From Citrobacter sp. FP75 (lineage in GTDB: Bacteria; Pseudomonadota; Gammaproteobacteria; Enterobacterales; Enterobacteriaceae), in contig NZ_JAFDOE010000003.1 of assembly GCF_018342065.1 (NCBI RefSeq), positions 620,001 to 684,000 of the forward strand: a stretch of 64,000 nt of DNA, in the 5' to 3' direction. Shown in pieces: positions 39,112-61,562 of the stretch. Position 1 is the stretch's first letter, and each line of letters starts with the position of its first letter. Made by a program: the position numbers and the translations under genes. The notes beneath the pieces are model-generated. The model saw nothing but the letters and a program-made list of their open reading frames with translations. It was not told where the DNA came from and did no database searches.

Positions 39112-39136
39112 GCCAGTCAACACATTGAGAACCCTT

Positions 39137-40315: not shown

Positions 40316-41245
40316 ATGTTGCGTCGTGTAAAACTGTTGTGTTCACTTATCATGCTGCTCGCCAGTCAGGGAGCGCAGGCGGTGAGTTATCCACTGCCGC
40401 CAGAGGGCAGTCGTCTGGTCGGAAGCCCGCTGACGATTACGGTACCGCCTGCCAATACGCAACCGCTGGAGGCATTCGCTGCGCAGTACGGGCAGGGACT
40501 GAGCAATATGCTCGAAGCTAATCCGGGAGTGGATGTCTATTTGCCGAAATCAGGCTCTACGCTGGTAGTGCCACAGCAGGTCATTTTGCCTGATACCGTA
40601 CGTGAGGGCATCGTTATTAACGTGGCAGAAATGCGCCTTTACTATTACCCCAAAGACAGCAATACGGTTGAAATCTTACCGATTGGTATCGGTCAGGCGG
40701 GGAGAGAAACGCCGCGCAACTGGGTAACGGCAGTAGAGCGCAAGCAGGAAGCGCCAAGCTGGACGCCTACGCCAAATACGCGCCGGGAATACGCCGCTCG
40801 CGGAGAAAGCTTGCCTGCGTTTGTTCCGGCCGGACCGGAAAATCCGATGGGGCTGTACGCCATTTATATTGGCAGGCTGTACGCTATTCACGGCACTAAT
40901 GCTAACTTTGGTATTGGGTTGCGGGTAAGCCAGGGCTGTATTCGCCTGCGCAATGACGATATTAAATATCTGTTTGATACCGTGCCGGTGGGAACGCGGG
41001 TTCAACTCATCGACCGGCCTGTGAAATACAGCACCGAACCAGACGGTAGCCGCTGGGTTGAAGTTCATGAGCCGTTGTCACGTAACCGCAGCGAATATGA
41101 GTCGGATAAAAAGATCCCGCTGCCGGTAACCCCTGCGTTACGTACTTTTGTTACCGGGGATGGCGTGGACATCAGCCGTGCCAATGCAACGCTGGAGCGC
41201 CGCTCCGGGATGCCGGTGAATATCAGCCGGGTACAGAAATTCTAA
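40316..41245 (+). CDS. ldtA: L,D-transpeptidase LdtA (ErfK), lipoprotein-anchoring type
   Basis: Periplasmic enzyme of the YkuD family (309 residues). In E. coli this group links Braun's lipoprotein to peptidoglycan. The signal peptide ends GAQA (residues about 19-22). A LysM-like segment with [16 protein letters not shown] precedes the catalytic domain. The active site has [20 protein letters not shown] with the nucleophile Cys208. Position next to cobT is the same as in E. coli. Confidence 0.95.
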
Positions 41246-45261: not shown

Positions 45262-46383
45262 ATGTCGCTGAAATTAATGAAAAATCCGCTTTCTCTCGTG
45301 TTGGCTGGTTGTCTGGTAGCGGCGGTTCCCGCCCAGGCTGATATCGTGATTGGCGTTGCCGGGCCATTTACCGGGCCAAACGCTACCTACGGTGATCAGT
45401 ACTGGCACGGCGCGACTCAGGCCGCGGAAGATATTAATGCTGCCGGTGGGATCAACGGCGAAAAAATCAAGCTGGTGCAGGGCGATGACGCCTGTGAACC
45501 GAAACAGGCTGTGTCGGTCGCGAACCGACTGGTCGATCAGGACAAAGTGAAGGCCGTCGTTGGTCACTTCTGTTCTTCTTCTACAATGCCAGCCTCAGAG
45601 GTTTACAGCGACGCGGGGATCATCGCTATTACACCTGGTTCGACTAACCCGCTGATCACCGAGCGCGGCATGAATGACATGTTCCGTATGTGTGGCCGTG
45701 ACGATCAGCAAGGGGGCGTCGCCAGTAATTTCATCATCGACAAACTGAAAGCCAAGCGGGTGGTGATTATTCACGATAAAGATACCTACGGGCAGGGGCT
45801 GGCGGATGCGACACGTGCTGCGCTGGCTAAGCGCGGGGTGAAAGATGTGATGTATGAAGGGCTGTCGCGCGGTGAAAAAGACTTTAATGCGCTGGTGACC
45901 AAAATTGGTGCTCAGAAGCCGGACGTGGTGTTTTTCGGCGGCTGCCACCCGGAAGCGGGCCCGCTGGTGCGCCAGATGCGTGAGCAGGGCGTACAGGCTA
46001 AATTTTTCTCCGGCGACTGTATCGTCAACGAAGAGATGGTAACTGCCGCCGGCGGCCCGCAGTACACCAACGGTATTTACATGACCTTCGGTAAAGATCC
46101 TCGTCTGATCGCAGACGGTAAAGCGGTTATCGAAAAATTCCGTAGCAACAAGTTTGAACCGGAAGGCTACACCCTCTACTCCTACGCCTCTATTCAGGCA
46201 ATCGCCGCGGCATTTAAAGCCACCGGCGGCACCGACTCAGCCAAAGCCAGCGCCTGGCTGAAGGCGAACCCGGTGGAAACGGTGATGGGCAAAAAAGCCT
46301 GGGACAGCAAAGGCGACTTGAAGGTCTCGGATTACGTCGTTTATCAGTGGGATGACAAAGGCAAATATAAAGAAGTCGAGTAA
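45262..46383 (+). CDS. Periplasmic branched-chain amino acid-type binding protein (LivJ/BraC-like)
   Basis: A 373-residue type I periplasmic binding protein of the LivJ family. The signal peptide ends PAQA (about residues 23-26), and the mature protein begins DIVIGVAGPFTGPNATYGDQYWHGATQAAEDIN, the family hallmark. The two cysteines in GDDACEPKQ and GHFCSSST probably form the conserved disulfide. It is the first gene of a liv-like operon separate from the main enterobacterial livKHMGF. The exact amino acid is not readable from sequence. Confidence 0.88.
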   Translation: MSLKLMKNPLSLVLAGCLVAAVPAQADIVIGVAGPFTGPNATYGDQYWHGATQAAEDINAAGGINGEKIKLVQGDDACEPKQAVSVANRLVDQDKVKAVVGHFCSSSTMPASEVYSDAGIIAITPGSTNPLITERGMNDMFRMCGRDDQQGGVASNFIIDKLKAKRVVIIHDKDTYGQGLADATRAALAKRGVKDVMYEGLSRGEKDFNALVTKIGAQKPDVVFFGGCHPEAGPLVRQMREQGVQAKFFSGDCIVNEEMVTAAGGPQYTNGIYMTFGKDPRLIADGKAVIEKFRSNKFEPEGYTLYSYASIQAIAAAFKATGGTDSAKASAWLKANPVETVMGKKAWDSKGDLKVSDYVVYQWDDKGKYKEVE

Positions 46384-46388
46384 CGCTC

Positions 46389-46416
46389 AGCGCCGGTGTG
46401 GCGACGCACCGGCGCT
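46389..46416 (+). other. Intercistronic hairpin between the binding-protein gene and livH-like gene
   Basis: AGCGCCGGTG (46389-46398) pairs with CACCGGCGCT (46407-46416) around an 8-base loop: a perfect 10-bp GC-rich stem without a U-run, starting six bases after the stop codon. In ABC operons such hairpins often protect the upstream mRNA so the binding protein is made in excess over the permease. Confidence 0.7.
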
Positions 46417-46445
46417 CATAACATGGCCTATAACACGAGCGAGCA

Positions 46446-47363
46446 ATGATGGAAACTTTCTTCCTGCAACAGTTAGTCAATGGCTTGACGCTGGGATCGG
46501 TTTACGGATTAATCGCCATTGGTTACACCATGGTATACGGCATTATTGGTATGATTAACTTCGCTCACGGCGAAGTGTATATGATTTCAGCATATCTCTG
46601 CGCCATCGGTCTGGCGCTACTTTCCTTCTTTGGCCTGCACTCCTTCCCGCTGCTGATACTCGGTACGTTGGTGTTTACCATCGTAGTGACCGGTGTCTAC
46701 GGCTGGGCGATTGAACGCATCGCCTACAAGCCGCTGCGTAACTCAACGCGCTTAGCGCCGTTAATCTCTGCCATCGGTATGTCATTAATCTTGCAAAACT
46801 ATGCGCAAATCAGCCAGGGGCCGCGCCAGCAGGGCGTGCCGACGATGCTTGATGGTGTGCTGCGTCTACATCTCGGTGAAGGCTTTGTGCAGATAACCTA
46901 TACCAAAATCTTTATCCTGTTGGCTTCGTTTGCTGGCATGTTGCTGCTGACATGGATAATCGGTCATACCCGCTTAGGTCGGATGTGTCGTGCGGTGCAG
47001 CAGGATCGCAAAATGGCTTCCATTCTGGGTATCAACACCGACCGGGTGATCTCGCTGGTGTTTATGATTGGTGCCGCGATGGCAGGGCTTGCAGGGGTAC
47101 TGATCACCATGAACTACGGTACTTTTGATTTCTACGCCGGGTTCATTATAGGTATTAAAGCTTTCACCGCTGCGGTGCTTGGCGGTATTGGCTCATTGCC
47201 GGGGGCGATGTTGGGTGGGCTGTTGCTGGGGGTTGCCGAAGCGCAGTTTTCCGGCATGGTGAACTCCGACTACAAAGACGTATTCTCCTTCGGCCTGCTG
47301 GTGGTTATTTTGATTTTCCGTCCACAGGGGCTGCTGGGCCGCCCGATTGTCGCCAAAGTGTAG
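46446..47363 (+). CDS. livH: Branched-chain amino acid-type ABC permease LivH-like
   Basis: Inner-membrane permease subunit (305 residues) with about eight hydrophobic helices. The N terminus QLVNGLTLGSVYGLIAIGYTMVYGIIGMINFAHGEVYMI is the LivH signature. The cytoplasmic loop GRMCRAVQQDRKMASILGI is the EAA-type contact to the ATPases. Two tandem ATG codons occur (46446, 46449). The symbol denotes family membership, since this is a paralogous system. Confidence 0.88.
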   Translation: MMETFFLQQLVNGLTLGSVYGLIAIGYTMVYGIIGMINFAHGEVYMISAYLCAIGLALLSFFGLHSFPLLILGTLVFTIVVTGVYGWAIERIAYKPLRNSTRLAPLISAIGMSLILQNYAQISQGPRQQGVPTMLDGVLRLHLGEGFVQITYTKIFILLASFAGMLLLTWIIGHTRLGRMCRAVQQDRKMASILGINTDRVISLVFMIGAAMAGLAGVLITMNYGTFDFYAGFIIGIKAFTAAVLGGIGSLPGAMLGGLLLGVAEAQFSGMVNSDYKDVFSFGLLVVILIFRPQGLLGRPIVAKV

Positions 47364-47372
47364 GAGCTGAAT

Positions 47373-48662
47373 ATGACGACTACAACGGCTTCACGCGATG
47401 GTTTTTCACTCAAACGCTGCATTTTGGACACTATTTTTTCGGGGATGGTGGCGTTAGTTCTCTTTGGCCCGATAGTCGGCGTGGTGCTGGACGGCTACAG
47501 TTTCAATTTCGAGGGCCAGCGGCTGGTATGGATTATCGCCGCGGTGATGGTCGGGCGTTTCATCCTCAGCGCTTTTCTGATGACCCAGACCGGACGCCAC
47601 TTTGCCGCCCGCTTTGAAAGCGATAGCGCAGGGGTGTATGTCCGTCCGGCGGGCTATAAAACCAGGATGCGCTGGATTATTCCCCTGGTGCTGGCGCTGG
47701 CCATCTGCTTCCCGTTTGTGGCGACTAAATATGTGCTGACCGTGGCGATCCTCGGTCTTATCTATGTGCTGCTGGGATTAGGGCTGAATATCGTGGTCGG
47801 TCTGGCCGGGCTGCTGGATCTCGGTTATGTGGCTTTCTATGCCATTGGCGCGTACGGCCTGGCGCTGGGTTATCACTATCTGGGACTGGGATTCTGGACG
47901 ATGCTGCCGATGGCCGCATTGATGGCCGCTGCCGCCGGCGCATTGCTCGGCTTTCCGGTCTTGCGGATGCACGGCGATTATTTGGCGATAGTAACCCTTG
48001 GGTTTGGCGAAATTATCCGTCTGATCCTCAATAACTGGCTGAGCTTTACCGGTGGGCCGAACGGAATTTCCGCGCCGCCGCCGACCTTCTTCGGCCTTGA
48101 GTTTGGCCGCCGCGCCAAAGAAGGGGGCATACCGTTCCACGAGTTTTTCCATCTGAGCTATAACCCGAACCTGAAGTTTATCTTTATCTATGCCGTTTTA
48201 GTGTTGGTGGTGCTGCTGGTGCTGTACATCAAGCATCGCCTGACGCGGATGCCGATTGGACGCGCGTGGGAAGCACTGCGTGAAGATGAGATTGCCTGTC
48301 GTTCGATGGGGCTGAATCACGTGCTGGTTAAGCTGTCTGCTTTTACGCTTGGGGCTTCAACTGCGGGCATTGCCGGGGTGTTCTTCGCCACCTATCAGGG
48401 GTTTGTGAACCCGACGTCGTTTACCTTTTTCGAGTCGGCGCTGATCCTCGCTATCGTAGTGCTCGGCGGTATGGGTTCTACCGTGGGCGTTGTGCTGGCG
48501 GCGTTTGTCCTCACCGTCACCCCTGAGCTGTTGCGCAGTTTTGCTGAATATCGCGTGCTGTTGTTTGGCGTATTGATGGTAGTGATGATGATCTGGCGAC
48601 CGCGTGGCCTGATCCGCATTAACCGCAGCGGTTTTGCCGTGCGTAAAGGGGTAGCGCCATGA
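47373..48662 (+). CDS. livM: Branched-chain amino acid-type ABC permease LivM-like
   Basis: Second permease subunit (429 residues), about the length of E. coli LivM because it keeps the extra N-terminal helices (residues 1 to about 110). The core has GLGLNIVVGLAGLLDLGYVAFYAIGAY and the ATPase-contact loop RMPIGRAWEALREDEIACRSMGL. It overlaps livG by four bases. Confidence 0.88.
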   Translation: MTTTTASRDGFSLKRCILDTIFSGMVALVLFGPIVGVVLDGYSFNFEGQRLVWIIAAVMVGRFILSAFLMTQTGRHFAARFESDSAGVYVRPAGYKTRMRWIIPLVLALAICFPFVATKYVLTVAILGLIYVLLGLGLNIVVGLAGLLDLGYVAFYAIGAYGLALGYHYLGLGFWTMLPMAALMAAAAGALLGFPVLRMHGDYLAIVTLGFGEIIRLILNNWLSFTGGPNGISAPPPTFFGLEFGRRAKEGGIPFHEFFHLSYNPNLKFIFIYAVLVLVVLLVLYIKHRLTRMPIGRAWEALREDEIACRSMGLNHVLVKLSAFTLGASTAGIAGVFFATYQGFVNPTSFTFFESALILAIVVLGGMGSTVGVVLAAFVLTVTPELLRSFAEYRVLLFGVLMVVMMIWRPRGLIRINRSGFAVRKGVAP

Positions 48663-49537
48663 GCCGTGACGTGATTTTAAGCGTTGAGCATCTGATGATG
48701 CATTTTGGGGGGATTAAGGCCCTAAACGACGTCAACCTGGAAGTGGAGCGCGGGTCGATTACCGCGCTCATTGGGCCGAACGGCGCGGGAAAAACCACGG
48801 TATTTAACTGTCTTACCGGCTTTTACAAGGCTTCCGGCGGCCATATTCTGTTTAATGCGCGAGGGAAAACCACCAATGTGATTCAGATCCTCGGCCAGAA
48901 GTTCCAGCCGGGTGACTGGGTTAAGCCGGCGCAGTTGGCATCACGGGTGTTCTACAAAATGTTTGGTGGTACCCATTTGGTCAATCGGGCAGGGCTGGCG
49001 CGAACGTTTCAGAACATCCGCTTGTTCCGTGAAATGTCGGTGGTAGAAAACCTGCTGGTGGCACAGCATATGCTAGTGAACCGTAATCTGCTGGCCGGGG
49101 TGTTGAATACTCCCGCTTATCGTCGGGCGGAAAGTGACGCACTGGATCGCGCCTTCTACTGGCTGGAGGTGGTGGACCTGGTCGATTGCGCCAACCGACT
49201 GGCGGGGGAAATGTCCTACGGGCAGCAGCGACGGCTGGAGATTGCACGCGCCATGTGTACCGGGCCGGAGATCCTCTGCCTGGATGAACCGGCGGCTGGT
49301 CTGAACCCGGTAGAAACCAAGGCCCTGAGTAAAATCATTCGCTTTTTACGTGAGCACCATGCGATTACCATTTTACTGATTGAACACGATATGGGGATGG
49401 TAATGGACATTTCTGACAACATTATCGTGCTCGATCACGGTGACGTGATTGCTTTGGGCACAGCGGAACAGATCCAGCACGATGAGAAGGTGATTGCCGC
49501 CTATCTGGGTGCCAGCGAGGACGAGGTTCATCTATGA
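48659..49537 (+). CDS. livG: Branched-chain amino acid-type ABC ATPase LivG-like
   Basis: ABC ATPase (292 residues). Walker A is GPNGAGKTT, the signature region MSYGQQRRLEIARAM and Walker B ILCLDEPAAGLN. It carries an insertion of roughly 35 residues after Walker A (ILGQKFQPGDWVKPAQLAS) compared with E. coli LivG, which makes it longer. It is coupled to livM and livF by ATGA overlaps. Confidence 0.88.
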   Translation: MSRDVILSVEHLMMHFGGIKALNDVNLEVERGSITALIGPNGAGKTTVFNCLTGFYKASGGHILFNARGKTTNVIQILGQKFQPGDWVKPAQLASRVFYKMFGGTHLVNRAGLARTFQNIRLFREMSVVENLLVAQHMLVNRNLLAGVLNTPAYRRAESDALDRAFYWLEVVDLVDCANRLAGEMSYGQQRRLEIARAMCTGPEILCLDEPAAGLNPVETKALSKIIRFLREHHAITILLIEHDMGMVMDISDNIIVLDHGDVIALGTAEQIQHDEKVIAAYLGASEDEVHL

Positions 49538-50250
49538 GCGAGCCGCTGCTGGAATTTCGTGAAGTTGACGTGTTTTACGGCGTGATTCAGGCGCTAAAAC
49601 AGGTCTCATTGCAGGTGAATAAAGGCGAAACCGTGTCGCTGATTGGCGCTAACGGCGCGGGCAAGTCGACGCTGTTGATGTCGATTTTCGGTCAGCCGCG
49701 GGTGCGAAGCGGGCATATTTTATTTGCGGGTGAGGATATCAGCCACCAGTCGACCCATTTTGTCGCCTCGGCGGGGATCGCTCAGGCACCGGAAGGGCGG
49801 CGGATCTTCCCCGATATGACCGTGGAGGAAAACCTGTTGATGGGGACGATTCCAATCGGTAACAAATATGCTGCCGAAGACTTGCAAAGTATGTTCGATC
49901 TTTTCCCGCGCTTAAAGGAGCGGCGCAAGCAGCGCGCGATGACCATGTCCGGCGGTGAGCAGCAAATGCTGGCGATTGCCAGGGCGTTGATGAGCCGACC
50001 CAAGCTCCTGCTGCTGGATGAACCCAGTCTGGGCCTGGCACCGATTGTGGTGAAGCAGATCTTTCAGACCCTGCGTGAGTTGGCGCGTAACGGGATGACT
50101 ATCTTCCTGGTCGAACAGAACGCCCATCATGCACTGAAGCTTTCGGATAGGGGGTATGTAATGGTGAATGGTCAAATTCGACTTAGCGGTAGTGGTGAAG
50201 AGCTGCTGGGGAACGAGGATGTGCGGAAGGCGTATCTGGGCGGTATATGA
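49534..50250 (+). CDS. livF: Branched-chain amino acid-type ABC ATPase LivF-like
   Basis: ABC ATPase (238 residues) and last gene of the operon. Walker A is GANGAGKST, the signature MSGGEQQMLAIARAL and Walker B LLLLDEPSLGL. The C terminus ELLGNEDVRKAYLGG is typical of LivF. It is the last gene before the accessory island. Confidence 0.88.
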   Translation: MSEPLLEFREVDVFYGVIQALKQVSLQVNKGETVSLIGANGAGKSTLLMSIFGQPRVRSGHILFAGEDISHQSTHFVASAGIAQAPEGRRIFPDMTVEENLLMGTIPIGNKYAAEDLQSMFDLFPRLKERRKQRAMTMSGGEQQMLAIARALMSRPKLLLLDEPSLGLAPIVVKQIFQTLRELARNGMTIFLVEQNAHHALKLSDRGYVMVNGQIRLSGSGEELLGNEDVRKAYLGGI

Positions 50251-50541
50251 GCGTGTCGGTTAATGCCATAGTAAGAGGCTCCATTTTCTCAACGAATCGT
50301 GAGACCCTAAAAACTACGAATAGCAAAAGCCCGGGAATCCTTTTCAGGATGACCGGGTAAAGATAATTTCTTTTTTACAACGTCCCCGGACTTGCTGTAA
50401 TGTCCCGAAACTTAAATTTGGCTCCTCTGACTGGGATCGCCTTAGCCATTAACTGACTGATTGGTAAGCTAAACCTAAAAATTGGGGTTGTCAAGACCAC
50501 CAGAATGACCACCAATGGAATGCAATGAAAAACAGATAAAT
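50251..50541. other. Non-coding junction between the Liv-like operon and the accessory island
   Basis: This 291-base stretch has no gene. It contains a hairpin at 50330-50357 (CCCGG...CCGGG outer stem and ATCC...GGAT inner stem), followed 12 bases later by a T6 run, possibly the livF terminator, and the 17-base tRNA-Asn-like repeat at 50418-50434. After the repeat the sequence becomes A/T-rich. Confidence 0.6.
50418..50434 (-). repeat. Attachment-site-like copy of the tRNA-Asn 3' end
   Basis: TTGGCTCCTCTGACTGG is, on the minus strand, CCAGTCAGAGGAGCCAA, the last 16 bases of enterobacterial tRNA-Asn plus one. The same 17 bases are, from memory, the att direct repeat of the Yersinia high-pathogenicity island and of other elements that insert in asn tRNA genes. 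The bases beyond the repeat (GATCGCCTTAG) do not continue the tRNA, so this is a lone att copy rather than a tRNA gene. Confidence 0.75.
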
Positions 50542-51222
50542 TTACCCCAAATATTTCTTGGCAAAACTAGCTAGCTCCTGCGCTCTGACTGGGTCCCAGC
50601 CATTGTTGACTGCAAATTGTCTGATTGCTTCTTCAGATGCTTTAAGTCCTTGCTTTTTCAGGTCAGCAAAAATTCGTTTTGCCCTGTCTTTATCAGATGG
50701 GTGGCTAAGTCCTGTTGACATGTTGATGCAGCGACCGAGTCTTAAAATTTCATTACCAATAGGGTCTGGCAATTCTGGTTTTAGGATTTTCCAGGTAGAT
50801 GGGCCAACTATTTCAGGCTCCCATGTAGATAGCCAGCGTTTACCTTCCTCCACTGACCAAGGTAAAAAGACGATACTATTGATGTTTTGAACACTATCAA
50901 CAATATCCATGTCTTTATCTGTTAAATATGTAGCTAATACAATGTCATGATTGCCATATATTGGAAAATTTTTAGGGATATTAAACTCTAGTCGAACATT
51001 ACTACCCAGATCGATAGTTTGACCTTTTATCAATGCCTTTGTTACCTGGGTTCCAAGGAATATTGCTATATCAGAATGAGAAAACGTTCCTTTCGCAGGA
51101 AATAGTAGAGATACTCGTTGAAGTCCCGCATCTTTACATAGATGGTAGGCCTTACTTAAGGCAGTTTTTATATTATCTTGATTTGAACCATTATTTTCGA
51201 TTAGAAATCTGGAAATTGACAT
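50542..51222 (-). CDS. Unrecognised 226-residue protein
   Basis: I do not recognise a functional family with confidence. The protein begins MSISRFLIENNGSNQDNIKTALSKAYHLCKDAG. The N-terminal 130 residues look like a mixed alpha/beta domain, with LQRVSLLFPAKGTF and SIVFLPWSVEEGKRWL segments. The C-terminal part is helical and ends EEAIRQFAVNNGWDPVRAQELASFAKKYLG, a small helix-rich module. There is no signal peptide or membrane segment. It is the gene nearest the att-like repeat and is separated by 102 bases from the next gene, which is read in the same direction. Coding density and length indicate a real gene. Confidence 0.75.
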   Translation of the reverse strand: MSISRFLIENNGSNQDNIKTALSKAYHLCKDAGLQRVSLLFPAKGTFSHSDIAIFLGTQVTKALIKGQTIDLGSNVRLEFNIPKNFPIYGNHDIVLATYLTDKDMDIVDSVQNINSIVFLPWSVEEGKRWLSTWEPEIVGPSTWKILKPELPDPIGNEILRLGRCINMSTGLSHPSDKDRAKRIFADLKKQGLKASEEAIRQFAVNNGWDPVRAQELASFAKKYLG

Positions 51223-51324
51223 AAAAACTCCTTTTAATAAACATTAGGAATAGTAGAAAAGTCTTGGGTTAGGCTGTTATGTGTTCTGTCTTGTGAGCCG
51301 TCCCCAGTGCTAAAGCAAGTCATA

Positions 51325-52050
51325 TCAAAAGTCTTCGTCGTCATCCGTTGGCCCATCCTCAATTGCTGGTAAGGCTTCAAGCTGAGATTTGAGTTGTTCA
51401 TTTAACTGGGAGCCCAATAAGAGAAAAGCTTCAAGCCTTTTTTGCCTTTTTTCCAGTATTCTCCGTTGCGCATTATTGGGATTGTCTGTATTGGCCGGGT
51501 TACCTCGTAACTGAAAGATACGAATTTCAAGCAGATCAACATCTTCGTCCAATCCAGCTTTCTGTGCTAACTCCACCCATTCTTGGGATTTATCGATAGC
51601 ATTCTCTGCTGCTAAAGATAAACAGTAATCAATCAGTATTTTTGCTACAGAATCAATATCCTTAGCGGCGGTTAACCATTTTTGGACCTCACTGGTTTCT
51701 TTTTCTACATTAATTAGATCTCGGTAAGGTGAAAAAAATCTCGGTTGCTCATTTTCAGGATCAAGACCTTTTAAGGTTCTTAGAATAGGTTCGAGCTCCT
51801 GAAATGGTCTGGTACCAATTGGCAATTCGTATCTGTTAGACCAGAATGACCATATAGAGTCCCTAATCTCCGCTTGTTTAGCTGTACGGACGATGTCGTC
51901 TGTACAATGTTCAGCATCATAAATGAGCTCTGCGATATGATGAGCCATCCATCTGCTTAATGTATCAACAGAGTCATTTAGCTCAAGCTCATCAACTAGT
52001 TTTTTCCCCAGTTCTATAATTGCCGTATAGCGTGTGGATGGTTCCGTCAT
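51325..52050 (-). CDS. Unrecognised helical 241-residue protein
   Basis: A soluble, mostly helical acidic protein starting MTEPSTRYTAIIELGKKLVDELELNDSVDTLSRWMAHHIAELIYDAEH, with a charged coiled-coil-like C-terminal part (NNAQRRILEKRQKRLEAFLLLGSQL) and an acidic tail TDDDEDF. No catalytic motif is visible. It starts one base after the stop of the frameshifted TPR gene upstream, so it is likely cotranscribed with that gene. A role in immunity or defence is possible from context but not shown. Confidence 0.75.
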   Translation of the reverse strand: MTEPSTRYTAIIELGKKLVDELELNDSVDTLSRWMAHHIAELIYDAEHCTDDIVRTAKQAEIRDSIWSFWSNRYELPIGTRPFQELEPILRTLKGLDPENEQPRFFSPYRDLINVEKETSEVQKWLTAAKDIDSVAKILIDYCLSLAAENAIDKSQEWVELAQKAGLDEDVDLLEIRIFQLRGNPANTDNPNNAQRRILEKRQKRLEAFLLLGSQLNEQLKSQLEALPAIEDGPTDDDEDF

Positions 52051-52492
52051 TTATTTTTCGAGTTTAATTCTATCTAAATAAAAATCTAAATACTTTTTAG
52101 GTCGTTCCTGAAAAGCTCTTTTCTTCCCATAACTGTAAGCATCATGAAAATATTTATGTGCCTCATCGTACTGCTCTAGTTCAAAGCAAACCATTCCCAT
52201 ATTAACTATAGGGCCGGTGTCTATTGAATCTTTTACCTCTAATAATACGTAAGCCCAGCTTTTTGCCTTTTCGTAATCACACTTATCAAAATAAGCAGAA
52301 AAAAAAACTGGATGCGATCCAATAAGAAGGCATCATCCAACTAGTTCTAGGTTCCGGCACTAATATCCATGCCTTCTCATAATACAGTAGTGCCGAATCA
52401 ATATCTTTATTATGGCGATACTTATCCCCCTCTAAGACAATTTTATTTATTTCCTCATTCAATGCAGGATCTTTATCATATAAATTGATCAT
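52051..52492 (-). pseudogene. TPR-type probable immunity gene with a homopolymer frameshift
   Basis: The frame from ATG 52492 (MINLYDKDPALNEEINKIVLEGDKYRH) reaches a premature stop at 52286. Shifting frame at the nine-base A/T homopolymer at 52299-52307 restores a continuous protein to the TAA at 52051-52053. The continuation reads SAYFDKCDYEKAKSWAYVLL and ends AFQERPKKYLDFYLDRIKLEK. The joined product of about 146 residues looks like a small tetratricopeptide protein of the type found beside Rhs toxin tips. The defect may be a mutation, a slippage-controlled switch, or a sequencing error. Confidence 0.7.
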
Positions 52493-52504: not shown

Positions 52505-52831
52505 TCAGTAATTTGGCTGTTCTGCTGGTCCAACAAATCCGCCGGGATCACGGTATCGTTCAGGTGTTGAACCGCCCCTTGAACGGTTGGTACTGTAATA
52601 TTCAAGCTCATAGTTATCTGGATCTTTCATCCATGCCCTAACTTCTTTAGATTTAGGGCCAAAATATCCGCCTCGACGATTCCAGTATGTAACGGCGTCT
52701 TCAAGATGAGACATATCTGCATCTTTTATATGATACCATTTTCCATTAGATTCAAAAAGAATATCCCTATAACCATCACCCATAATACGCCCGTCTTTAC
52801 GCATTCTATCTATTACGGCACGACCAATTAA
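52505..52831 (-). pseudogene. Orphan Rhs C-terminal toxin tip (GH-E-like nuclease), no core
   Basis: An open frame with a plausible ATG at 52804 gives 99 residues (MRKDGRIMGDGYRDILFESNG); it stays open to a TAG at 52832-52834, adding IGRAVIDR-like residues upstream. The body has DADMSHLEDAVTYWNRRG, FGPKSKEVRAWMKDPDNYEL and a tail STNRSRGGSTPERYRDPGGF. This resembles the HNH/Endo VII-superfamily GH-E nuclease tips of Rhs proteins. No Rhs core or DPxGL junction precedes it. It is probably a displaced toxin tip kept with its immunity gene, 12 bases downstream. Confidence 0.6.
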
Positions 52832-53227: not shown

Positions 53228-53539
53228 TTAATCTAAAAAATCATCTTCTTCGAGATAATAAATAACAGCATCTAACAGGTCTTCATTTGAAGCATCAGGA
53301 TAATGTTCAAGTTTATTATCTATAATAGCCTGAAACACCTGGTACTCCAGCCATGGCTTATATTTATTTGGCGTATCATCCATTTCATCAAATTCATCAT
53401 CACTTTCTGCAATATAATAAGATGACGTTCTAATGAAATCGATATTATTTCTAAATGAAGTGTCCACAAAAAAACACCATGGCACATCTAGCTCTTTGTA
53501 GATGCGCAACAAACCCTCAAAGCCTTCAATCATTTTCAT
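53228..53539 (-). CDS. Probable immunity protein of the Rhs toxin
   Basis: A small acidic protein (103 residues) directly downstream of rhs, 12 bases away and in the same direction. It begins MKMIEGFEGLLRIYKELDVPWCFFVDT and has a strongly acidic middle and tail (SDDEFDEMDDT, YYLEEDDFLD). I cannot assign a named immunity family. Position, size and charge are those expected of the protein that neutralises the nuclease tip of the neighbouring Rhs. Confidence 0.7.
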   Translation of the reverse strand: MKMIEGFEGLLRIYKELDVPWCFFVDTSFRNNIDFIRTSSYYIAESDDEFDEMDDTPNKYKPWLEYQVFQAIIDNKLEHYPDASNEDLLDAVIYYLEEDDFLD

Positions 53540-53551
53540 AATATGAAATCC

Positions 53552-56500
53552 TTAACGACAACCAGTACCACCACCCCACTTATTACGCCCACCAGAGCCA
53601 TCAGGATGGTAGATTTTGTGGTAAGTTTTGTGATCAAAATGGTCAACTAAACTTAATACTCCAGTTTTATCTTCATGGTGCCATGTCATACCTTTAGGAG
53701 CTGTTGGTTTAAAGTTTCCTCTTGAATTAGGCTGTACATGCTCAACCACTCCGGGATATTTCGTCTGCATTTCTCGTCTGAACGCAGGATCTTTTTGTAT
53801 CCTTTCATAAACCGACTGATTTCCTCGCCTGAAATGTTCAGCATCTGACAGGTCATATTCAGAAGGATTCAGAGTGTGTTCATGAAATACATTATATTTA
53901 CCAAGCTCACGCTGACCTTCACCTTTATATAAACCTAAAGGATCGATCCAACTTAATGGATTCGGCGCATAAGCATACAGGTTTAAACCGCCCGCCAGCC
54001 CTATCGGATCTGCCGAGATATACCGCCCACTCTCAGGCTCATAATACCGATACCGGTTATAATGTAAACCACTCTCTTCATCAAAATACTGTCCCTGAAA
54101 ACGCAGCGGATTCCTCACCGAACCGGTCTGTTCACTCCACGCTCCCCACGGCCCTGCGCTCTGCGACCACGCCACGCCGCCGCTCTCATCCGTCAGCCTC
54201 ATTGGCGCGCCGTTCACGTCGTTGTGATAAAAATATATCCGCTTCTCCGGCTCGCTGAATCCGTCCTTTTCGCTCCAGCGCCGCCCGTACTTTATCAGTG
54301 CCAGCGGCTCAAAACTCTGCGGGTAGTAGATGTACTCCTGCACGGCCTGCCCGGTGACCAGACTCTTCAGCCGCTCCTCCCGCGCTCCGCTGCTGCCCGG
54401 TTTTCGCATATCACACGCCGCCGTCAGCGTTTCCTGTGCCGGGGCCGTCTCCTGCGCTTCTCCCGCCAGCGCATCCCCGTCCCACCAGAACCACGTCAGG
54501 CTGGCGGTGTCTTCACCCGCTTTGACCGTTTTCTTGAATACCCGGCGACCAAGGCCGTCATAACCATATTGTGTGGTGGCGCTGTCGCTGTGCAGTGCTT
54601 TCAGTCTCCCGCTGACGTCCCACTCCAGCGTCTCGCTGACAACCTTCTGTGACCACAGGTACGGTGTCCGGCGTTTACGCTTCTCCAGTTGCCCGTTGCG
54701 GTTATACCAGTGCTCCAGCGTGACCTGCCGCTCTTCCTCCACCCGGCCATAACACTGCCAGTCGTCCCCGCTGCCGCTGATGTCTTCCCGCAGCCGGTTA
54801 CCCGCAGCGTCATACACAAAATTTGTTATCCGCCCCAGAACGTCCGTGTGCGCCGTCAGCCTGTCCATCACGTCATGGCTGAAAAATTCCTGCCCCGTCA
54901 CGCTGTCATTTCGCTGCCGAACGTTACCGTTTAAATCGTAATACCACTCGGTGGCAAACAGCGGCCTGGCCTCCCGGCTCACCCGTTGTGCGCTCAGCCA
55001 GCCGTTTTCGTTATAGCTCAGTTCACGCTTCAGCTCCGGCGTAAGCTGCTCTTCACGCAACCGCCCCAGCGCGTCATACACCAGCGCGGTCGCCGGTTCG
55101 TCGTTTATCCGTATCTGGCTTAACTGCCCCGCATCGTTGTAGCCGAGCCGCACGCGGTTGCCGCTGTCGCTCTCCCGTCCCGCATACTGACCGGCCTCCG
55201 TATAGCCGTGGTGGATGCTGACCCCGTCCTGTACTTCTTCCGTCAGCCTGCCGCCGCTGTCGTAACGCCAGCTCACTTTGCGGTACGGGTTATCGCAGGC
55301 CGTCAGTTGCCCACGCTGGTTATAGTCGTAGCACGCCAGCAGCGTATCGTTGTGATACTGCCCGGTAATGCGGCCCTGTTTATCGTGGTGGTAAGTCAGG
55401 GTGGTGCCGTCCGGCGCGGTTCTGGCGCTCAGCAGGCTGTCGGCGCTCCACTGGTAGCGTGTATTCTGGCCCCGCCAGTCACGCTCTTCCACAATCCGCC
55501 CCAGACTGTCGCGGACTATCTGCCAGCGCTGGTCCATCTGGTTGATGACCGCCACAAGCTGGTCTTCGGTATCATACTCGTAATTGGTACGGCTGCCGTC
55601 CGGCAGGGTACAGCCGGAGACTTCGCCAGTGGGGGTATAGTCCAGCCGGGTAATACGCTGGCCGTCGTCATAAGCCACAAGCTGGCCTTCGGCATCGTAC
55701 TCCAGCCGGATGGCGTTACGGTACGGCAGCTTTGCCTCCGTCAGCCTGTCGGCGCTGTCGTAACGGTAGTCCCGCTGTTCTTTCAGCGCATTCATTTCCG
55801 ACAGCAGGTTGCCCCGGTTATCATGAACGTATGTCGTTTTCGCCCCGGTGCGCGCCGTCAGTGCGCTGACAAAGCCAAGGCGGTCATACTCCAGCAGTTC
55901 GTGGCCCTGTCCAGCGACATCCCTGCGCACCATCTGCCCCAGTTCATCGTAGTGATACTGCTGTTGCACGCCTGCCGGGTCTGTCACGCCGGTCAGATTG
56001 CCACGCTCATCATGTCCGAACTGCCAGCAGGCACCTTCCGGGTCGCTGGCCTCTTTCATATGCAGCCCCTGCCAGACCGCCACAAACTCGCTGTCGTCCG
56101 GCGCGATTTCCCGGCAGATATTGCCTGCCTCATCATATTCAAAGCGGGTGGTTCTTCTGTCTGGTGAGGTGATGCTGACCGTCTGTCCGAACTCGTCGTA
56201 AAGGAAGAACGTCGCACCGCCTTCCGGGTCGATTTCACACAGGGGGAGACGGTCTTCGCTGAAGCGGATGATGGTGGTATGCCCCAGCGAGTTGGTCATC
56301 TCCAGCTCATGGCTGAAGTCATTCCACACGAAATGATAGTCATAGTAACCGCCGTCACCCCATGCGTGAATAACGCGCCACGTATCGTCATAGTCATAAT
56401 GGAAGCGCTGGCCGAGACGGTCGGCGTGGTACTGCATGTAAACCCGTTCCCGCCACGCGAAATGGCGACGATGGCCGTCGCTGTCAGTCTGCCCTGCCAG

Positions 56501-57757
56501 TTGGTTATCCGGGGTATAGTCATACTGCGTCAGGTCGCTCTGCGTTTCATCACCGTCCGGCCACACCCCGGCCTGGCTGTCACACAGACGAATGCGAACA
56601 ATGCGCTGGTGCAGGCAGTCAGCTTCGACCCTGCGCCCGGTCAGTGCCTGCGCGGTGTATTCCGTCAGGGTGATACGCCCGGTTTCATAGCGAAAACGCC
56701 AGCCGTTGCCGTTGTTGTCTTCCAGCCTGTCCGGACGCAGAACCGACGCGGACGACGCCGTTTCCTGACGAAAGCGCCAGCGGCGGTTTTCCGTCGTTTC
56801 TGCATGCCAGTGGCGAACGCCGTCTTCTTCCTCATACCACAGCAGTGCGCCACCCGGCAGACTGCTTACGGCATGGGACTGGCCTGCCTGTTCGGGGATG
56901 TCGGCAAAAAACAGTGAACCATCAGCCAGTACAAGCTCATGGTAATCTTCTTCTGTGTGATGGATAAGACGGGTATCTGCCAGCGTTTTCCAGCCATAAC
57001 TGCACAATCCCTCTTCCTGTACATCCGCTGAACGGTAGTAACGTATCCAGTCCAGAGGCACACGCCCCGACAGCAGGAAATCACGCTGTTCCAGCCTGAC
57101 GCTGCCGTCACGAATATCGACGGGTTCCGCGCGCAGTACCTTACACTTGAGGAAGCCCGGGTCCATGTTTTTAAAGAGTTTTTGACGGAACTCTTTAAAT
57201 TTATCCATGAACTTTTTGTAAGCCTTGCTTTTGCCAATGCGCTTGAAAGCGGAAAATCCAACCTTGGTCAACATTGACATCATACTGATGGTCTGCGGCC
57301 CACCAACGGAAACATGATGGGGCAGCGCCATATTGACCGTCAGCGGCGCGGTCAGGGAGAGTATGGGCATTTTTTTAGCACGCCGAAGGCGAAACGGCGG
57401 AATGATGCCTGCCACGTTACAGCTCAATGTGGGTGACAGGCGACGCGACAGCGGATCGCCATCCACAACGACCGTTTTGCTGCCCATAAACACTTCATCA
57501 TCGGTCTGGGGGCCGCCGGGGATTTTGGGGGGAGGAACCGGCGCACCGATAAGGATATGGAAGACCTTTCCTTCTGTACCGGCAACAGTACGTCTCAGCC
57601 CGTGGATTTTTACCGTCGCCCCGATGATGGGCGCATAGTCCCATACGTCAAAAACCATGGCGATATGCGGCGTGGGCCAGACTCCCGGTGGCAGGGCATA
57701 AGAATGAAAATCGATCCCCAGCATCGGGTCAAAATGTTTACTGGCGTTAATGGCCAT
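53552..57757 (-). CDS. rhs: Type VI PAAR-Rhs effector with WHH-type nuclease tip
   Basis: A 1401-residue polymorphic toxin. Residues about 1-120 form a PAAR-like domain (GAPVPPPKIPGGPQTDDEVFMG, KTVVVDGDPLSRRLSPTLSC) that would sharpen the VgrG spike. Residues about 210-1250 are the Rhs core with many YD repeats such as YDEAGNICRE and YDSADRLTEAKL. The cleavage junction PLSWIDPLGL ends at residue 1276. The last 125 residues are the variable toxin tip with MTWHHEDKTGVLSLVD (W1359, H1360, H1361) and GGRNKWGGG, consistent with a WHH-type HNH nuclease. It is placed between a small membrane protein gene and its immunity gene. Confidence 0.93.
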   Translation of the reverse strand: MAINASKHFDPMLGIDFHSYALPPGVWPTPHIAMVFDVWDYAPIIGATVKIHGLRRTVAGTEGKVFHILIGAPVPPPKIPGGPQTDDEVFMGSKTVVVDGDPLSRRLSPTLSCNVAGIIPPFRLRRAKKMPILSLTAPLTVNMALPHHVSVGGPQTISMMSMLTKVGFSAFKRIGKSKAYKKFMDKFKEFRQKLFKNMDPGFLKCKVLRAEPVDIRDGSVRLEQRDFLLSGRVPLDWIRYYRSADVQEEGLCSYGWKTLADTRLIHHTEEDYHELVLADGSLFFADIPEQAGQSHAVSSLPGGALLWYEEEDGVRHWHAETTENRRWRFRQETASSASVLRPDRLEDNNGNGWRFRYETGRITLTEYTAQALTGRRVEADCLHQRIVRIRLCDSQAGVWPDGDETQSDLTQYDYTPDNQLAGQTDSDGHRRHFAWRERVYMQYHADRLGQRFHYDYDDTWRVIHAWGDGGYYDYHFVWNDFSHELEMTNSLGHTTIIRFSEDRLPLCEIDPEGGATFFLYDEFGQTVSITSPDRRTTRFEYDEAGNICREIAPDDSEFVAVWQGLHMKEASDPEGACWQFGHDERGNLTGVTDPAGVQQQYHYDELGQMVRRDVAGQGHELLEYDRLGFVSALTARTGAKTTYVHDNRGNLLSEMNALKEQRDYRYDSADRLTEAKLPYRNAIRLEYDAEGQLVAYDDGQRITRLDYTPTGEVSGCTLPDGSRTNYEYDTEDQLVAVINQMDQRWQIVRDSLGRIVEERDWRGQNTRYQWSADSLLSARTAPDGTTLTYHHDKQGRITGQYHNDTLLACYDYNQRGQLTACDNPYRKVSWRYDSGGRLTEEVQDGVSIHHGYTEAGQYAGRESDSGNRVRLGYNDAGQLSQIRINDEPATALVYDALGRLREEQLTPELKRELSYNENGWLSAQRVSREARPLFATEWYYDLNGNVRQRNDSVTGQEFFSHDVMDRLTAHTDVLGRITNFVYDAAGNRLREDISGSGDDWQCYGRVEEERQVTLEHWYNRNGQLEKRKRRTPYLWSQKVVSETLEWDVSGRLKALHSDSATTQYGYDGLGRRVFKKTVKAGEDTASLTWFWWDGDALAGEAQETAPAQETLTAACDMRKPGSSGAREERLKSLVTGQAVQEYIYYPQSFEPLALIKYGRRWSEKDGFSEPEKRIYFYHNDVNGAPMRLTDESGGVAWSQSAGPWGAWSEQTGSVRNPLRFQGQYFDEESGLHYNRYRYYEPESGRYISADPIGLAGGLNLYAYAPNPLSWIDPLGLYKGEGQRELGKYNVFHEHTLNPSEYDLSDAEHFRRGNQSVYERIQKDPAFRREMQTKYPGVVEHVQPNSRGNFKPTAPKGMTWHHEDKTGVLSLVDHFDHKTYHKIYHPDGSGGRNKWGGGTGCR

Positions 57758-57776: not shown

Positions 57777-57914
57777 TTACAGCGCCCGCATTAACTGGCG
57801 CAGAAATACCCTGATTTCATCGCGGTATGTGTCGTCAACAAGGCCCACATACGCCATCAGCAGGGCGGCCAGTACGGCAAGAATTAGCCATTTCTTTTTG
57901 TTAAAATTCAGCAT
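57777..57914 (-). CDS. Small single-pass membrane protein in the vgrG-rhs operon
   Basis: A 45-residue protein starting MLNFNKKKWLILAVLAALLMAYVGLVDD, one transmembrane helix with positive N terminus and a short charged C-terminal part (RDEIRVFLRQLMRAL). The ATG at 57914 has AGGAG just upstream and overlaps the last codons of the 540-residue gene by 14 bases. The longer frame upstream overlaps that gene and looks non-coding. No family is recognised. The position directly before rhs suggests a role in loading, protecting or holding the effector at the membrane. Confidence 0.7.
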   Translation of the reverse strand: MLNFNKKKWLILAVLAALLMAYVGLVDDTYRDEIRVFLRQLMRAL

Positions 57915-59523
57915 GTAATGGCTCCTGAGACGGGGTAAAAATGAGGCCAAACAGTAACGATATATTTTCATCCGTAAGATGTGTGGGGAAAGGCGGCAGT
58001 AAAGGGGAAAAGGGCCATTCATCAACGGACTTGTCCAGTGGATGGGCGATTTCAGCCGCTGCCCCCCAGAAGGCATTACTGTATTGACGGGCAAGGCGGA
58101 GTACCTGCTGATAAAGCGGTTTTTCCTGACTGAGCATGTGTTCCCGTTCCAGCAAAGTGTTCTGAAACAGCGTTTCCATCCTTTGCGTCAGTTCGTTATC
58201 GTGCTGTACTACCGCAGTGGCAATATCATGATGCCCGGCCTGATTCACCGCGTCTTCAGCCTGCTGAATAAGCTCTGCCTGCGCTTTCAGATACCGTTCG
58301 GAAAAACTGTCGCTCCGGGATGTGGCTTCGGGTGAAAGCCAGTTGAGCAGGTCGCGGAAAATCTGCATAAATCCCGACTGCGCCCGTTCTTCATCGCTCA
58401 TGGACAACCCCGCTTTCAACGCTGCGTGATAATGCTGCGCCGTTTTTGCCGGTGGGGGCGTGACCGACATCAGGCTGAATCCGGCCATCCGGTATCCTTC
58501 CATCGTCAGCAGCAGGGAAGGGATGTTTTGTGCTTCCTGTGCGGAACGGAAATAGGCATCAGATGCCTGCTCTGGTTTCTTATCCATAAACCATGCATTA
58601 CCTTCCCCCATCAGGTTCTGGGTGATAAGAAGATGGCGGGGTTCTGGCGGCAGGTCTGCGGAGGTTTGTATAGCAAGACGATAGTTTTTGATGGCATTCT
58701 GCGCGTGTTTTTCCTGTAGCCAGCCGCCTGCGATCATGCTAAGCATGATAACCTGTTGGTCGCCCCATCCCTGCTGACGAGCAAGCTCCAGCGCTTTTTG
58801 TGCCAGTTGCTCAGTTTGTGCTGCCGAGCCTTTTTTTATGGAAATGAAGGTGTCCGTCATTAGTTGGCGAAAACGCAGCATAGCGGTTCCATCCGACGTG
58901 GGCGTTTCATTCAGTGTCTGGCGCATCAGTTCATCTTCACTGATATCCGGCGTCAGCAAGCGTGCATTTTCCGGGAACCGGGTCAGAAGCCATTGCCAGT
59001 CAGGGTTCTCATGGGTATCAATAAGGAGCAGACGAAAACGAGACGTTCTGGTGGCTATGCTCTGACACAGGTCGTCAATAAACTGCCGATGAGAATCCGC
59101 ATGGCTGACAGAAGAGGCGGTCAGGATCACGGACAGATAGCGCAGATAATCCTGATGATAATGTGCAAAGTCGCTCATTAAAGCATGCAACGTATCTGCC
59201 TGGTAGCAGGGAAGCGAGCCGACAGGCTGCCAGCGTGGTTCGGGAAACGCCGAGACATTCACTCGTTCAATAAACTCTTCTTCCAGGCCATGAGAATATC
59301 CATAGCGTGTATCAAACGGCGTATTAAAACGAATGAACAGATCGGGCGTCGTAAAGTCATTTTGCTGCTCTTCCTGTAGGGCAAAGAACACATGTATCAG
59401 ACGATCTGAATCAGCAGGCGTGCGCCAGATAAAAATACGGGCATTCTCGTCGTCACTGGCTTCCAGCCAGAGGCGTTCCAGTTCTGCCAGTTTTCGCTCA
59501 ACAGCATTTTTGTTTCCCGACAT
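57901..59523 (-). CDS. Probable type VI effector adaptor, TPR-like, 540 residues
   Basis: A large soluble cytoplasmic protein beginning MSGNKNAVERKLAELERLWLEAS. Residues 1 to about 200 look like an alpha/beta domain (ARIFIWRTPADSDRLIHVFFALQEEQ, SRFRLLLIDTHENPDWQWLL). From about 225 it is helical with TPR-like pairs (QLAQKALELARQQGWGDQQVIMLSM and NAIKNYRLAIQTSADLPPEPRHLL). No catalytic motif or membrane segment is visible. It lies between vgrG and the PAAR-Rhs gene, where effector-loading chaperones are encoded, but it is not the small Eag (DUF1795) or the DUF4123 type. I infer an adaptor role. Confidence 0.72.
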   Translation of the reverse strand: MSGNKNAVERKLAELERLWLEASDDENARIFIWRTPADSDRLIHVFFALQEEQQNDFTTPDLFIRFNTPFDTRYGYSHGLEEEFIERVNVSAFPEPRWQPVGSLPCYQADTLHALMSDFAHYHQDYLRYLSVILTASSVSHADSHRQFIDDLCQSIATRTSRFRLLLIDTHENPDWQWLLTRFPENARLLTPDISEDELMRQTLNETPTSDGTAMLRFRQLMTDTFISIKKGSAAQTEQLAQKALELARQQGWGDQQVIMLSMIAGGWLQEKHAQNAIKNYRLAIQTSADLPPEPRHLLITQNLMGEGNAWFMDKKPEQASDAYFRSAQEAQNIPSLLLTMEGYRMAGFSLMSVTPPPAKTAQHYHAALKAGLSMSDEERAQSGFMQIFRDLLNWLSPEATSRSDSFSERYLKAQAELIQQAEDAVNQAGHHDIATAVVQHDNELTQRMETLFQNTLLEREHMLSQEKPLYQQVLRLARQYSNAFWGAAAEIAHPLDKSVDEWPFSPLLPPFPTHLTDENISLLFGLIFTPSQEPLHAEF

Positions 59524-59555: not shown

Positions 59556-61562
59556 TCAATTTAACGTGATTTCCTTGCCTTCGACCTTCACTTCGCCTGA
59601 AGCAATAAACGTGAATTTCACCCCATTCAGCGTAACGGAACCATCGTTCTTGATTTCCAGCTTTGCCGCTCCACAGGTAATGGTGATGGTATCGCCTACC
59701 GTCAGATCCAGTTTTCCGGCGATATCGGTTGTCTGGTTGCCTTCCTGTACAGTGAGGAACCGGTCGCCCTTGATGGTATTTTTTTGCCCTCCATTCTGGA
59801 TGGTATTGGTCTCCCCGCCATCTTTTACCGTTACGCTATGCCCGTTAGCGACAAAAAGGGAACGCTGACCGGTATTGACCTTGATATGTTGTTCGCCTTT
59901 TTCGACCGTAACTGCATGGCTACCTTCGGTAATCGTTCTGGTACAATCCTTTTTTACCGTGGTATGTTGCTCATTGTTGACATCAAGCCTCTGATCATGG
60001 GTGATAGTGGTATGATCGTCGTGTTTCACCTCAGTAGTGCGGTCATTTTCCACTACGGTATGCATGTCCTTCTGTGCATGCATTGACAACAATTCCTGCC
60101 CGGTCGCATCCTCGAACATCAGCTCGTTATAGCCACTGCCTTTGTAGGTTTTGGAGCGCAGGGTCATCTGGGTTTTGGTGCCAGGCAGGCCGCCGGGGGA
60201 TTTGTTATCCGCGTGGTAGGTGCGGCCTGTGATGATGGGCTGGTCAGGGTCGCCGTTAAGAAAGTCAACGATGACTTCCTGTCCGACGCGCGGAATGGCG
60301 AGATTACCAAAACCGGCTCCGGCCCATGCCTGCGAAACGCGTATCCAGCAGGAACTGCTGTCATCTACCGGATTGTATCTGTCCCATGTGAACTTCACCC
60401 GCACCCGTCCGTGCTCGTCACAGAAAATTTCCTCCCCCGGAGGTCCGGTAACGACCGCCGTCTGGGGGCCGTCCATCTGCGGCTTGGGCAAGGGGGTCGG
60501 TCGCCACGTCAGCTTACCGGGGATGACCTGAAAATCATTGCTCAGCGAGGTGCCCGCGCCTTCATAACCAATCAGCGCCTGCGGCTGCGAGCCGCGCAGC
60601 GTGCTGCTGACGACCTGCCACTGTACGTTCAGGTCCGCGCGGGGATGCGCTTTAAGCTCAAACCGCACACCGGGACGCAGTTTCGGCGAGTCAGTGACAC
60701 CACTCACGGTTTCTGCGTTATTGCGCAGCCCTTCTGTCTGATAGCGGGTAAACGCCTGTCCGTGGGCTTCATCTTTGAAGCGTCCAGGATAGTCAAAGAA
60801 TTCATATATCGGATACTGCGCATCCAGGTTGTCGCCATCATGGCTGAAGCTGCCCGGCCATGATGGGGTCTTAAAGGTGTAATCCTGCGTGGTGACTGAC
60901 GCAGGACGAATTTGCGCGCTACGGCGAAACTGCGTCACGTGGTAGAGCGTGGTTTCTTCACCGGGTGAAGGGTGATAGTTCAGCGATTCGCTGTCCGGCA
61001 GGCCCCCGGCGCTGTCGCACAGGATAAGCTGCTGTACACCATCGCCTTCTTCTTCGTAAGTGAATATTCCTTCTTCGGCCAACAGGCGGGTGATGAAGGC
61101 GTAGTCGGTTTCCATAAACTGTACGCAGAACTCACGTTCCGGATGGTCAGCAGACAGACGGGACTGCCACTGCGTGATCAGCATTTCACCGAACAGGGTC
61201 GAAACGATACCTTCAATATCGGTATTCTGGAAGATGCGGCTGTTGCGCCGCAGGGCGCTGCGCCAGAAGGGGGGATGAATATGCAGGATGTACTGCGTCT
61301 GGTGTTTACCGGTATCGCCCTGTTCACAGGCGGTGACGATGCCCCGTATGCTACGCTGTCGGATATTGTCCCGAAAAATAGTCAGGGTGGCGTTGCTTTC
61401 CAGAAGCTGGTCCAGCGGGATGGCCGGATTGCTACTGGCGGCGGTTACGTTCAGTGTGAACAGCGATGAGAGGGATTCCTGATGATGAAACTCCACCACG
61501 GCAAAGGTTTCGTCTTCCTGACCTTCAACATCCAGCGTAAAATGTGTTCCATATGCGGGCAT
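59556..61562 (-). CDS. vgrG: Type VI secretion spike protein VgrG (TssI)
   Basis: A 668-residue spike trimer subunit. Residues about 1-380 are the gp27-like base (FTLDVEGQEDETFAVVEFHHQESLSSLF) and the gp5 OB-fold with GEEIFCDEHGRVRVKFTWDRYNPVDDSSSCWIRVSQAWAG. The C-terminal part is a long beta-helix of short repeats (TVVENDRTTEVKHDDHTTITHDQR) ending VTLNGVKFTFIASGEVKVEGKEITLN. There is no added effector domain after it. It would carry the PAAR-Rhs protein encoded downstream. Confidence 0.95.
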   Translation of the reverse strand: MPAYGTHFTLDVEGQEDETFAVVEFHHQESLSSLFTLNVTAASSNPAIPLDQLLESNATLTIFRDNIRQRSIRGIVTACEQGDTGKHQTQYILHIHPPFWRSALRRNSRIFQNTDIEGIVSTLFGEMLITQWQSRLSADHPEREFCVQFMETDYAFITRLLAEEGIFTYEEEGDGVQQLILCDSAGGLPDSESLNYHPSPGEETTLYHVTQFRRSAQIRPASVTTQDYTFKTPSWPGSFSHDGDNLDAQYPIYEFFDYPGRFKDEAHGQAFTRYQTEGLRNNAETVSGVTDSPKLRPGVRFELKAHPRADLNVQWQVVSSTLRGSQPQALIGYEGAGTSLSNDFQVIPGKLTWRPTPLPKPQMDGPQTAVVTGPPGEEIFCDEHGRVRVKFTWDRYNPVDDSSSCWIRVSQAWAGAGFGNLAIPRVGQEVIVDFLNGDPDQPIITGRTYHADNKSPGGLPGTKTQMTLRSKTYKGSGYNELMFEDATGQELLSMHAQKDMHTVVENDRTTEVKHDDHTTITHDQRLDVNNEQHTTVKKDCTRTITEGSHAVTVEKGEQHIKVNTGQRSLFVANGHSVTVKDGGETNTIQNGGQKNTIKGDRFLTVQEGNQTTDIAGKLDLTVGDTITITCGAAKLEIKNDGSVTLNGVKFTFIASGEVKVEGKEITLN

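Follow-up and report, generated by a model that had tools for sequence, protein, structure and literature searches.

The window, by which we mean the whole 64,000-nucleotide stretch analysed here, is C22:620001-684000 of the Citrobacter sp. FP75 genome, which comprises 5.09 Mb in 28 contigs. Reading toward higher coordinates, the window contains cobT- and ldtA-like genes (39125-40201 and 40316-41245), a liv-type ABC operon on the plus strand (45262-50250), and, at 50418-50434 on the minus strand, the 17-bp sequence CCAGTCAGAGGAGCCAA, which is present only once in the window and matches the 3' end of tRNA-Asn exactly. This repeat is followed by a conserved stretch of ~82 bp (within 50435-50520) and then by a series of genes on the minus strand.

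The first of these genes encodes a protein of 226 aa (50542-51222; DUF1889 match below the curated cut-off), and the second encodes the AVAST type 3 anti-phage protein Avs3b (51325-52050; NCBIfam NF041817 over cut-off; PADLOC Avs3b, 3.8e-119), here without its partner Avs3a. Next come two short frames of 49 and 68 aa (52051-52492), which are TPR-like by eye and possibly the remains of an immunity gene, and an orphan tip of 99 aa resembling GH-E nucleases (52505-52804; PF14410, 6.6e-05, slightly below the curated cut-off). A DUF7716 protein (53228-53539; PF24832 over cut-off), which from its position is a candidate immunity partner for Rhs, precedes the 1401-aa Rhs protein with its WHH nuclease-like C terminus (53552-57757; PF05593, PF03527, and PF14414). 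Between Rhs and VgrG (TssI; 59556-61562; PF05954, PF22178, and PF04717) lies a 540-aa gene (57901-59523) that matched no family in Pfam, PADLOC, or NCBIfam at 0.001 and whose position suggests an adaptor. Next on the minus strand is Hcp (TssD; 61643-62161; PF05638 and TIGR03344), and the plus strand then encodes TssB (VipA; 62759-63256; PF05591) and TssC (VipB; from 63273 to 64000 and past the window end; PF05943 and PF18945 on L049:5273-6757).

The type VI secretion system (T6SS) genes run on beyond the window. As read from the sequence, the set comprises TssA, TssB, TssC, TssE, TssF, TssG, TssJ, TssK, TssL, TssM, ClpV, Hcp, and VgrG together with FHA, VasI, and VasL; the stretch that begins with TssB and ends with VasL is followed by a second Hcp gene. 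The distal part contains a lipoprotein-like gene (by eye), a sequence encoding 162 C-terminal residues of a TIGR03744 conjugation ATPase (C22:704551-705051; L007 551-1051), and a SIR2-like gene that a stop codon divides into frames of 213 and 783 aa (L007 1306-1947 and 1984-4335; C22:705306-708335), the second of which had no family match. The ATPase fragment, which appears to be the relic of a conjugative element, was the only conjugation gene among the island frames scanned; the same frames included no yersiniabactin-type gene, and the 1401-aa Rhs frame was the largest.

An island-free relative has an intact tRNA-Asn at the position of the repeat

The exact 17-mer occurs five times in the whole assembly. 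Four copies each form the 3' end of a tRNA-Asn gene that ARAGORN identified as intact (C1:811494, C5:1581, C5:3995, and C5:5879), and the window copy alone has no tRNA; a tRNA gene scan of the 64-kb window found none. Thus, the proposal from the sequence-only reading that these bases are the end of a tRNA-Asn whose remainder is missing is correct.

We compared window positions 49534-50541 with 60 relatives. Among the matches listed, only G012, a congener of another species, has a left flank that matches as far as the repeat, and it is therefore our single empty-site comparator. G012 is 92% identical to this query, and the match stops at 50434, the last base of the 17-mer. Over a longer distance, window 43897-50434 matches G012 L031 1-6543 with 95% identity (L031 as compared begins at the equivalent of window 43897), and C5:1578-3971 matches L031 6524-8918 with 93% identity. 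These matches have exactly 20 bp in common, L031 6524-6543, with the sequence CCAGTCAGAGGAGCCAAATT, which is the pattern left by integration at a tRNA 3' end. The suggested boundary at 50418 is consequently confirmed and refined to a shared core of 20 bp, i.e., the 17-mer plus ATT, at 50415-50434 on the minus strand, and we refer to this core as attR. Read onward, the window copy gives CCAGTCAGAGGAGCCAAATTTAAG, of which the first 20 bases are common to both island ends.

The gene order in L031 is liv-type operon, tRNA-Asn (minus strand), LysR gene, LysR gene. At this place, G012 contains the 17 bases only within the whole tRNA-Asn and has no adjoining T6SS genes; its best match to the island ClpV is 70% over 491 bases. 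Because the ABC operon (95% identity to G012) is also present at the empty site, it represents chromosomal flank rather than island. In L031 8902-17104, within a 20-kb stretch, there is no second tRNA-Asn after the second LysR gene, unlike in the FP75 genome, and ketosynthase-, epimerase-, and glycosyltransferase-like frames begin there (by eye).

The other island end on contig C5 contains a tRNA-Asn and an integrase gene

The sequence-only reading had placed the element at higher coordinates, with an intact minus-strand tRNA-Asn beyond it, the same 17 bases at the other end, and a P4-type integrase beside the tRNA. An intact tRNA-Asn is present at C5:1582-1657 (minus strand; ARAGORN), on a contig that we join to C22 by elimination (see below), and insertion at its 3' end is supported by the G012 empty site. 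The 3' flank of this gene differs from those of the other three tRNA-Asn genes, which share a terminator-like stretch. The 17-bp attO direct repeat is present at both island ends, at C22:670418-670434 and C5:1581-1597. Directly behind the tRNA-Asn lies an unbroken gene for a tyrosine recombinase of 423 aa (L010:149-1420, minus strand) with Arm-DNA-bind_3, Phage_int_M, and Phage_integrase domains and a score for NCBIfam NF007246 below that family's cut-off. Hence, the tRNA, the second repeat, and an adjoining recombinase were all found, while the label "P4-type" is presumed, the tools giving integrase domains and relatives. A second integrase in the same genome (G000:C25:197990-199246) has 57% aa identity to the island integrase.

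Beyond the C5 tRNA are two LysR genes, a tRNA-Asn, a MATE gene, and a tRNA-Asn. This order agrees with E. coli asn, nac, cbl, asn, yeeO, asn, the DNA matching at 76-78%, and, together with the cobT- and ldtA-like genes on the window side, it bears out the expectation of an E. coli-like neighborhood. Because the neighboring genes match the E. coli order, the integration site is taken as the putative asnV equivalent. E. coli SCU-485 has a similar integrase (83% nt) in the corresponding place. Separately, the chromosomal flank of attR (window 50341-50434) is similar to the yeeN-asnW flank of E. coli (75% over 95 bases, the core among them), and its match to the E. coli asnV side is confined to the core.

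The sequence just inside attR is a conserved element end

Using the 86 bp just inside attR (50435-50520) as the query, we obtained matches in 48 of 295 genomes of the family (the FP75 genome included), representing 38 of 154 genera. Of the 65 places listed, 57, counted by hand, start with the first base of the element end, beside the core. We examined 20 of these 65 places, namely the top-ranking one from each of 20 genomes including FP75, and at all 20 loci the element end abuts a core resembling the 3' end of tRNA-Asn. These cores are exactly CCAGTCAGAGGAGCCA in 15 cases and have one difference in 4 cases and two differences in 1 case. The element end is also present in 804 of 5426 E. coli genomes.

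Among the matches listed, there are 14 element-end places besides that in the window, and 6 of these have a full-length integrase relative (49-91% aa identity) within 30 kb on the same contig, in every case in the same relative orientation as in the FP75 island. At the other eight places, the integrase is on another contig, fragmentary, or not nearby; at G014:C8, a piece of an integrase lies on the outer side of the element end. We infer that the ~82-bp end binds recombination proteins. At two loci (L067 and L075), the element end and core lead into sequence resembling the integrase-side end, which would be expected of tandem islands at one tRNA-Asn.

The cargo next to attR has retained Avs3b and appears to have lost Avs3a

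The 226-aa protein has 94.7% aa identity to the product of the gene adjoining avs3b in an E. coli asnW island, and its relatives were found in three loci (L050 to L052) in a scan of genome contigs from which records of the FP75 genome itself were possibly left out. Avs3b has 93% aa identity to E. coli Avs3b from residue 17 of the latter onward. For Avs3a, the alignment is limited to the last 23 residues and spans 30 codons at window 51995-52084; this scrap lies mostly within the stretch that corresponds to the avs3a-avs3b overlap of E. coli. A complete AVAST type 3 pair is accordingly absent, with Avs3b present and Avs3a not present beyond the 3'-end scrap. Raoultella terrigena (L050) has the same island end with a full Avs3a, and NZ_WHOY01000031 (L051) has the same island end with Avs3a residues 1-1973. 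In L051, at ~9533-9536, the Avs3a match breaks off at residue 1973 and, within 3 bases, that to Avs3b picks up at residue 138, resembling a deletion-fusion.

The change in gene content that had been proposed for position 50418 therefore needs restating: the ABC operon is indeed flank, but the cargo nearest to attR is an Avs3b remnant, and the T6SS genes start further in. We interpret the cargo as a mosaic, in which the Avs3 module at attR has apparently lost avs3a and the Rhs/T6SS block stands in its place. It is fairly likely that several events built the region between attR and attL, starting from an Avs3-type asn-tRNA island, within which recombination subsequently substituted the Rhs/T6SS block for avs3a, with the SIR2-like gene and the conjugation fragment as further pieces; this would leave the att boundary unchanged and is a refinement more than a rival of a single island. 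In line with such stepwise assembly, homology at the DNA level to the islands of E. coli and Raoultella stops at window 52050, the avs3b start, where those islands continue into full avs3a, and the GC content jumps from 39.7% at 50435-52050 to 56.7% in Rhs and is 35.9% at C22:704001-708461. Against it, no island with the same T6SS was found, with or without Avs3, so that the order of events is unseen. A ClpV search for a close T6SS relative in 16 other genomes of the genus found none, giving matches at full or near-full length with 74-77% identity in four and one split match of 76 and 81%. For a 20-kb T6SS stretch, none of 5426 E. coli genomes covered 80% of the query, and the best match listed was 76% over 10%, in a near-mode search that is insensitive below ~85% identity.

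An insertion sequence probably interrupts the assembly between the two island ends

C22 ends at 708461, 24.5 kb beyond the window. Its last 83 bases are the reverse complement of C26:1-83, and C1 likewise ends in the reverse complement of C5:1-83; C22 and C26 finish in one IS end, and C5 and C1 finish in the other. Judged by eye, these ends form imperfect inverted repeats belonging to a single IS, which we take to be IS256-like and of which a diverged copy of ~1.3 kb is present on C25. An 8-bp target duplication, TAAGATAG, is shared by the flanks on C26 and C1. In G012, these flanks match C2:782856-782948 and 782941-783017, which by match coordinates are neighbors overlapping by 8 bp; both are short matches, of 86 and 76 query bases, and G012 was the only one of five genomes given that matched. 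G012 has a weak extra match to the C26 side 5 kb away.

Because the C26 and C1 flanks share a target duplication and are neighbors in G012, C22 would pair with C5. By elimination, one IS copy would thus lie between C26 and C1 and the other between C22 and C5. If C22 were instead joined to C1, the T6SS block would be in another structure, and the tRNA-Asn and integrase on C5 would belong to a different island. Both pairings use the same IS ends, and we looked for a target duplication flanking the copy between C22 and C5 and found none; however, the C26-C1 duplication and the adjoining flanks in G012 argue against this joining, as does the direct link in G012 from the left flank on C22 to the C5 tRNA, and we regard it as very unlikely. 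With C22 joined to C5, the island length is estimated at ~40.8 kb, i.e., 38,047 bases on C22, ~1.16 kb of unassembled IS (a share estimated from the C25 copy), and 1,597 bases on C5. As no duplication flanks this IS copy, the island has probably been shortened or reorganized at this point, and material may have been lost or rearranged between C22 and C5.

We also considered that the lone 17 to 20 bp could be what remains of a tRNA-Asn gene that decayed or was duplicated in part, unrelated to site-specific integration, given that several tRNA-Asn genes are clustered in the region. However, G012 has an intact tRNA-Asn exactly there, and the element end inside the repeat is conserved and found beside tRNA-Asn-like 3' ends elsewhere; based on the 20-bp overlap at the empty site, we rejected this explanation, which is highly improbable. 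A chance occurrence of the 17-mer has a negligible probability and was rejected, as 0.01 matches are expected in the window even if up to two mismatches are allowed and the repeat coincides with the end of the G012 match.

DISCUSSION

We conclude that 50415-50434 is very probably the attR of a ~40.8-kb island integrated at a tRNA-Asn by a tyrosine recombinase of the HPI type, with attL on C5. Integrases that use tRNA sites act on attP and the tRNA 3' end, and the tRNA gene is kept whole at attL. In the mechanism that we propose, an HPI-type integrase would recombine the attP of the element with the 3' end of tRNA-Asn, after which the whole tRNA gene and the integrase gene would be found at attL on C5, and attR in the window would be left with an isolated 20-bp copy of the 3' end. 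The island integrase itself presumably made this insertion. Excision takes the integrase plus a directionality factor, and an AlpA/Hef-type directionality factor acts in HPI. A PF05930 search across the FP75 genome found no AlpA-type directionality gene in the island and two matches elsewhere on C22, at C22:398786-399119. Because no such gene was found in the island and an IS without target duplication lies beside the integrase gene, the island is presumably little mobile now, and its present mobility is doubtful; the lack of an AlpA-type gene does not affect its status as an island.

The retention of Avs3b without Avs3a suggests that such an island exchanged cargo. We tentatively raise the possibility, which at present we hold to be the less probable one, that the attR-side module is an exchangeable slot for weapons or defence, in which Avs3a was swapped for a whole T6SS with an Rhs nuclease while Avs3b and its 226-aa neighbor were kept, and that an HPI-type integrase unit could move a complete T6SS between enterobacterial species. 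In the literature, we found no report uniting Avs3 with type VI secretion, island, and integrase, and none on type VI secretion, asn tRNA, and Citrobacter together; a T6SS in an asn-tRNA island may nevertheless have been published. The present analysis defines the boundary exactly and supplies, for a T6SS-bearing island, the empty site together with both att ends; the ~82-bp element end provides a handle for finding asn-tRNA islands throughout the family regardless of their cargo.

Several known systems can be compared with this island. In Table 1 of Paauw et al. (2010; PMC2801613), the attO of the HPI-ICE elements is the same 17-mer, in agreement with the sequence-only reading, which took these bases as the att repeat of asn-tRNA islands such as the Yersinia HPI. 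HPI and the HPI-ICE elements (ICEKp1, ICEEc1, and HPI-ICEEh1) are like the FP75 island in the 17-bp attO, the tRNA-Asn target, and a related integrase by the tRNA, and in one of the six attO copies in that table, 18 of the 20 inner flanking bases are as in the window (by eye). The integrase of an E. coli yersiniabactin island, also beside tRNA-Asn, matches C5:1-1581 with 72.8% nt identity over 87%. Unlike HPI and HPI-ICE, the island described here has no yersiniabactin genes that we could see and a fragment of one conjugation gene only, and its cargo consists of a T6SS, Rhs, an Avs3b remnant, and a split SIR2-like gene.

Two E. coli asnW islands provide a second comparison. The island in NZ_AP045171 (L035) is homologous to ours at both ends, with 87% aa identity in the integrase and 93-95% aa identity in the products of the first two cargo genes, and the island in NZ_CM143728 (L036) is alike in DNA. 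They differ in being ~15 kb long, in lying at asnW beside yeeN, and in containing avs3a (as two annotated frames in L036); unlike in FP75, no T6SS gene is listed in them from attR to the integrase. The T6SS clusters of congeners and E. coli have the same core as that of the island, namely tssA to tssM, ClpV, Hcp, VgrG, and Rhs. PMC2801613 describes the asn-tRNA region as an integration hotspot with exchangeable modules; our island fits this picture and overturns nothing in it. It is a further member of the known HPI-type asn-tRNA (attO) kind, and the T6SS block in the position of Avs3a is its unusual part.
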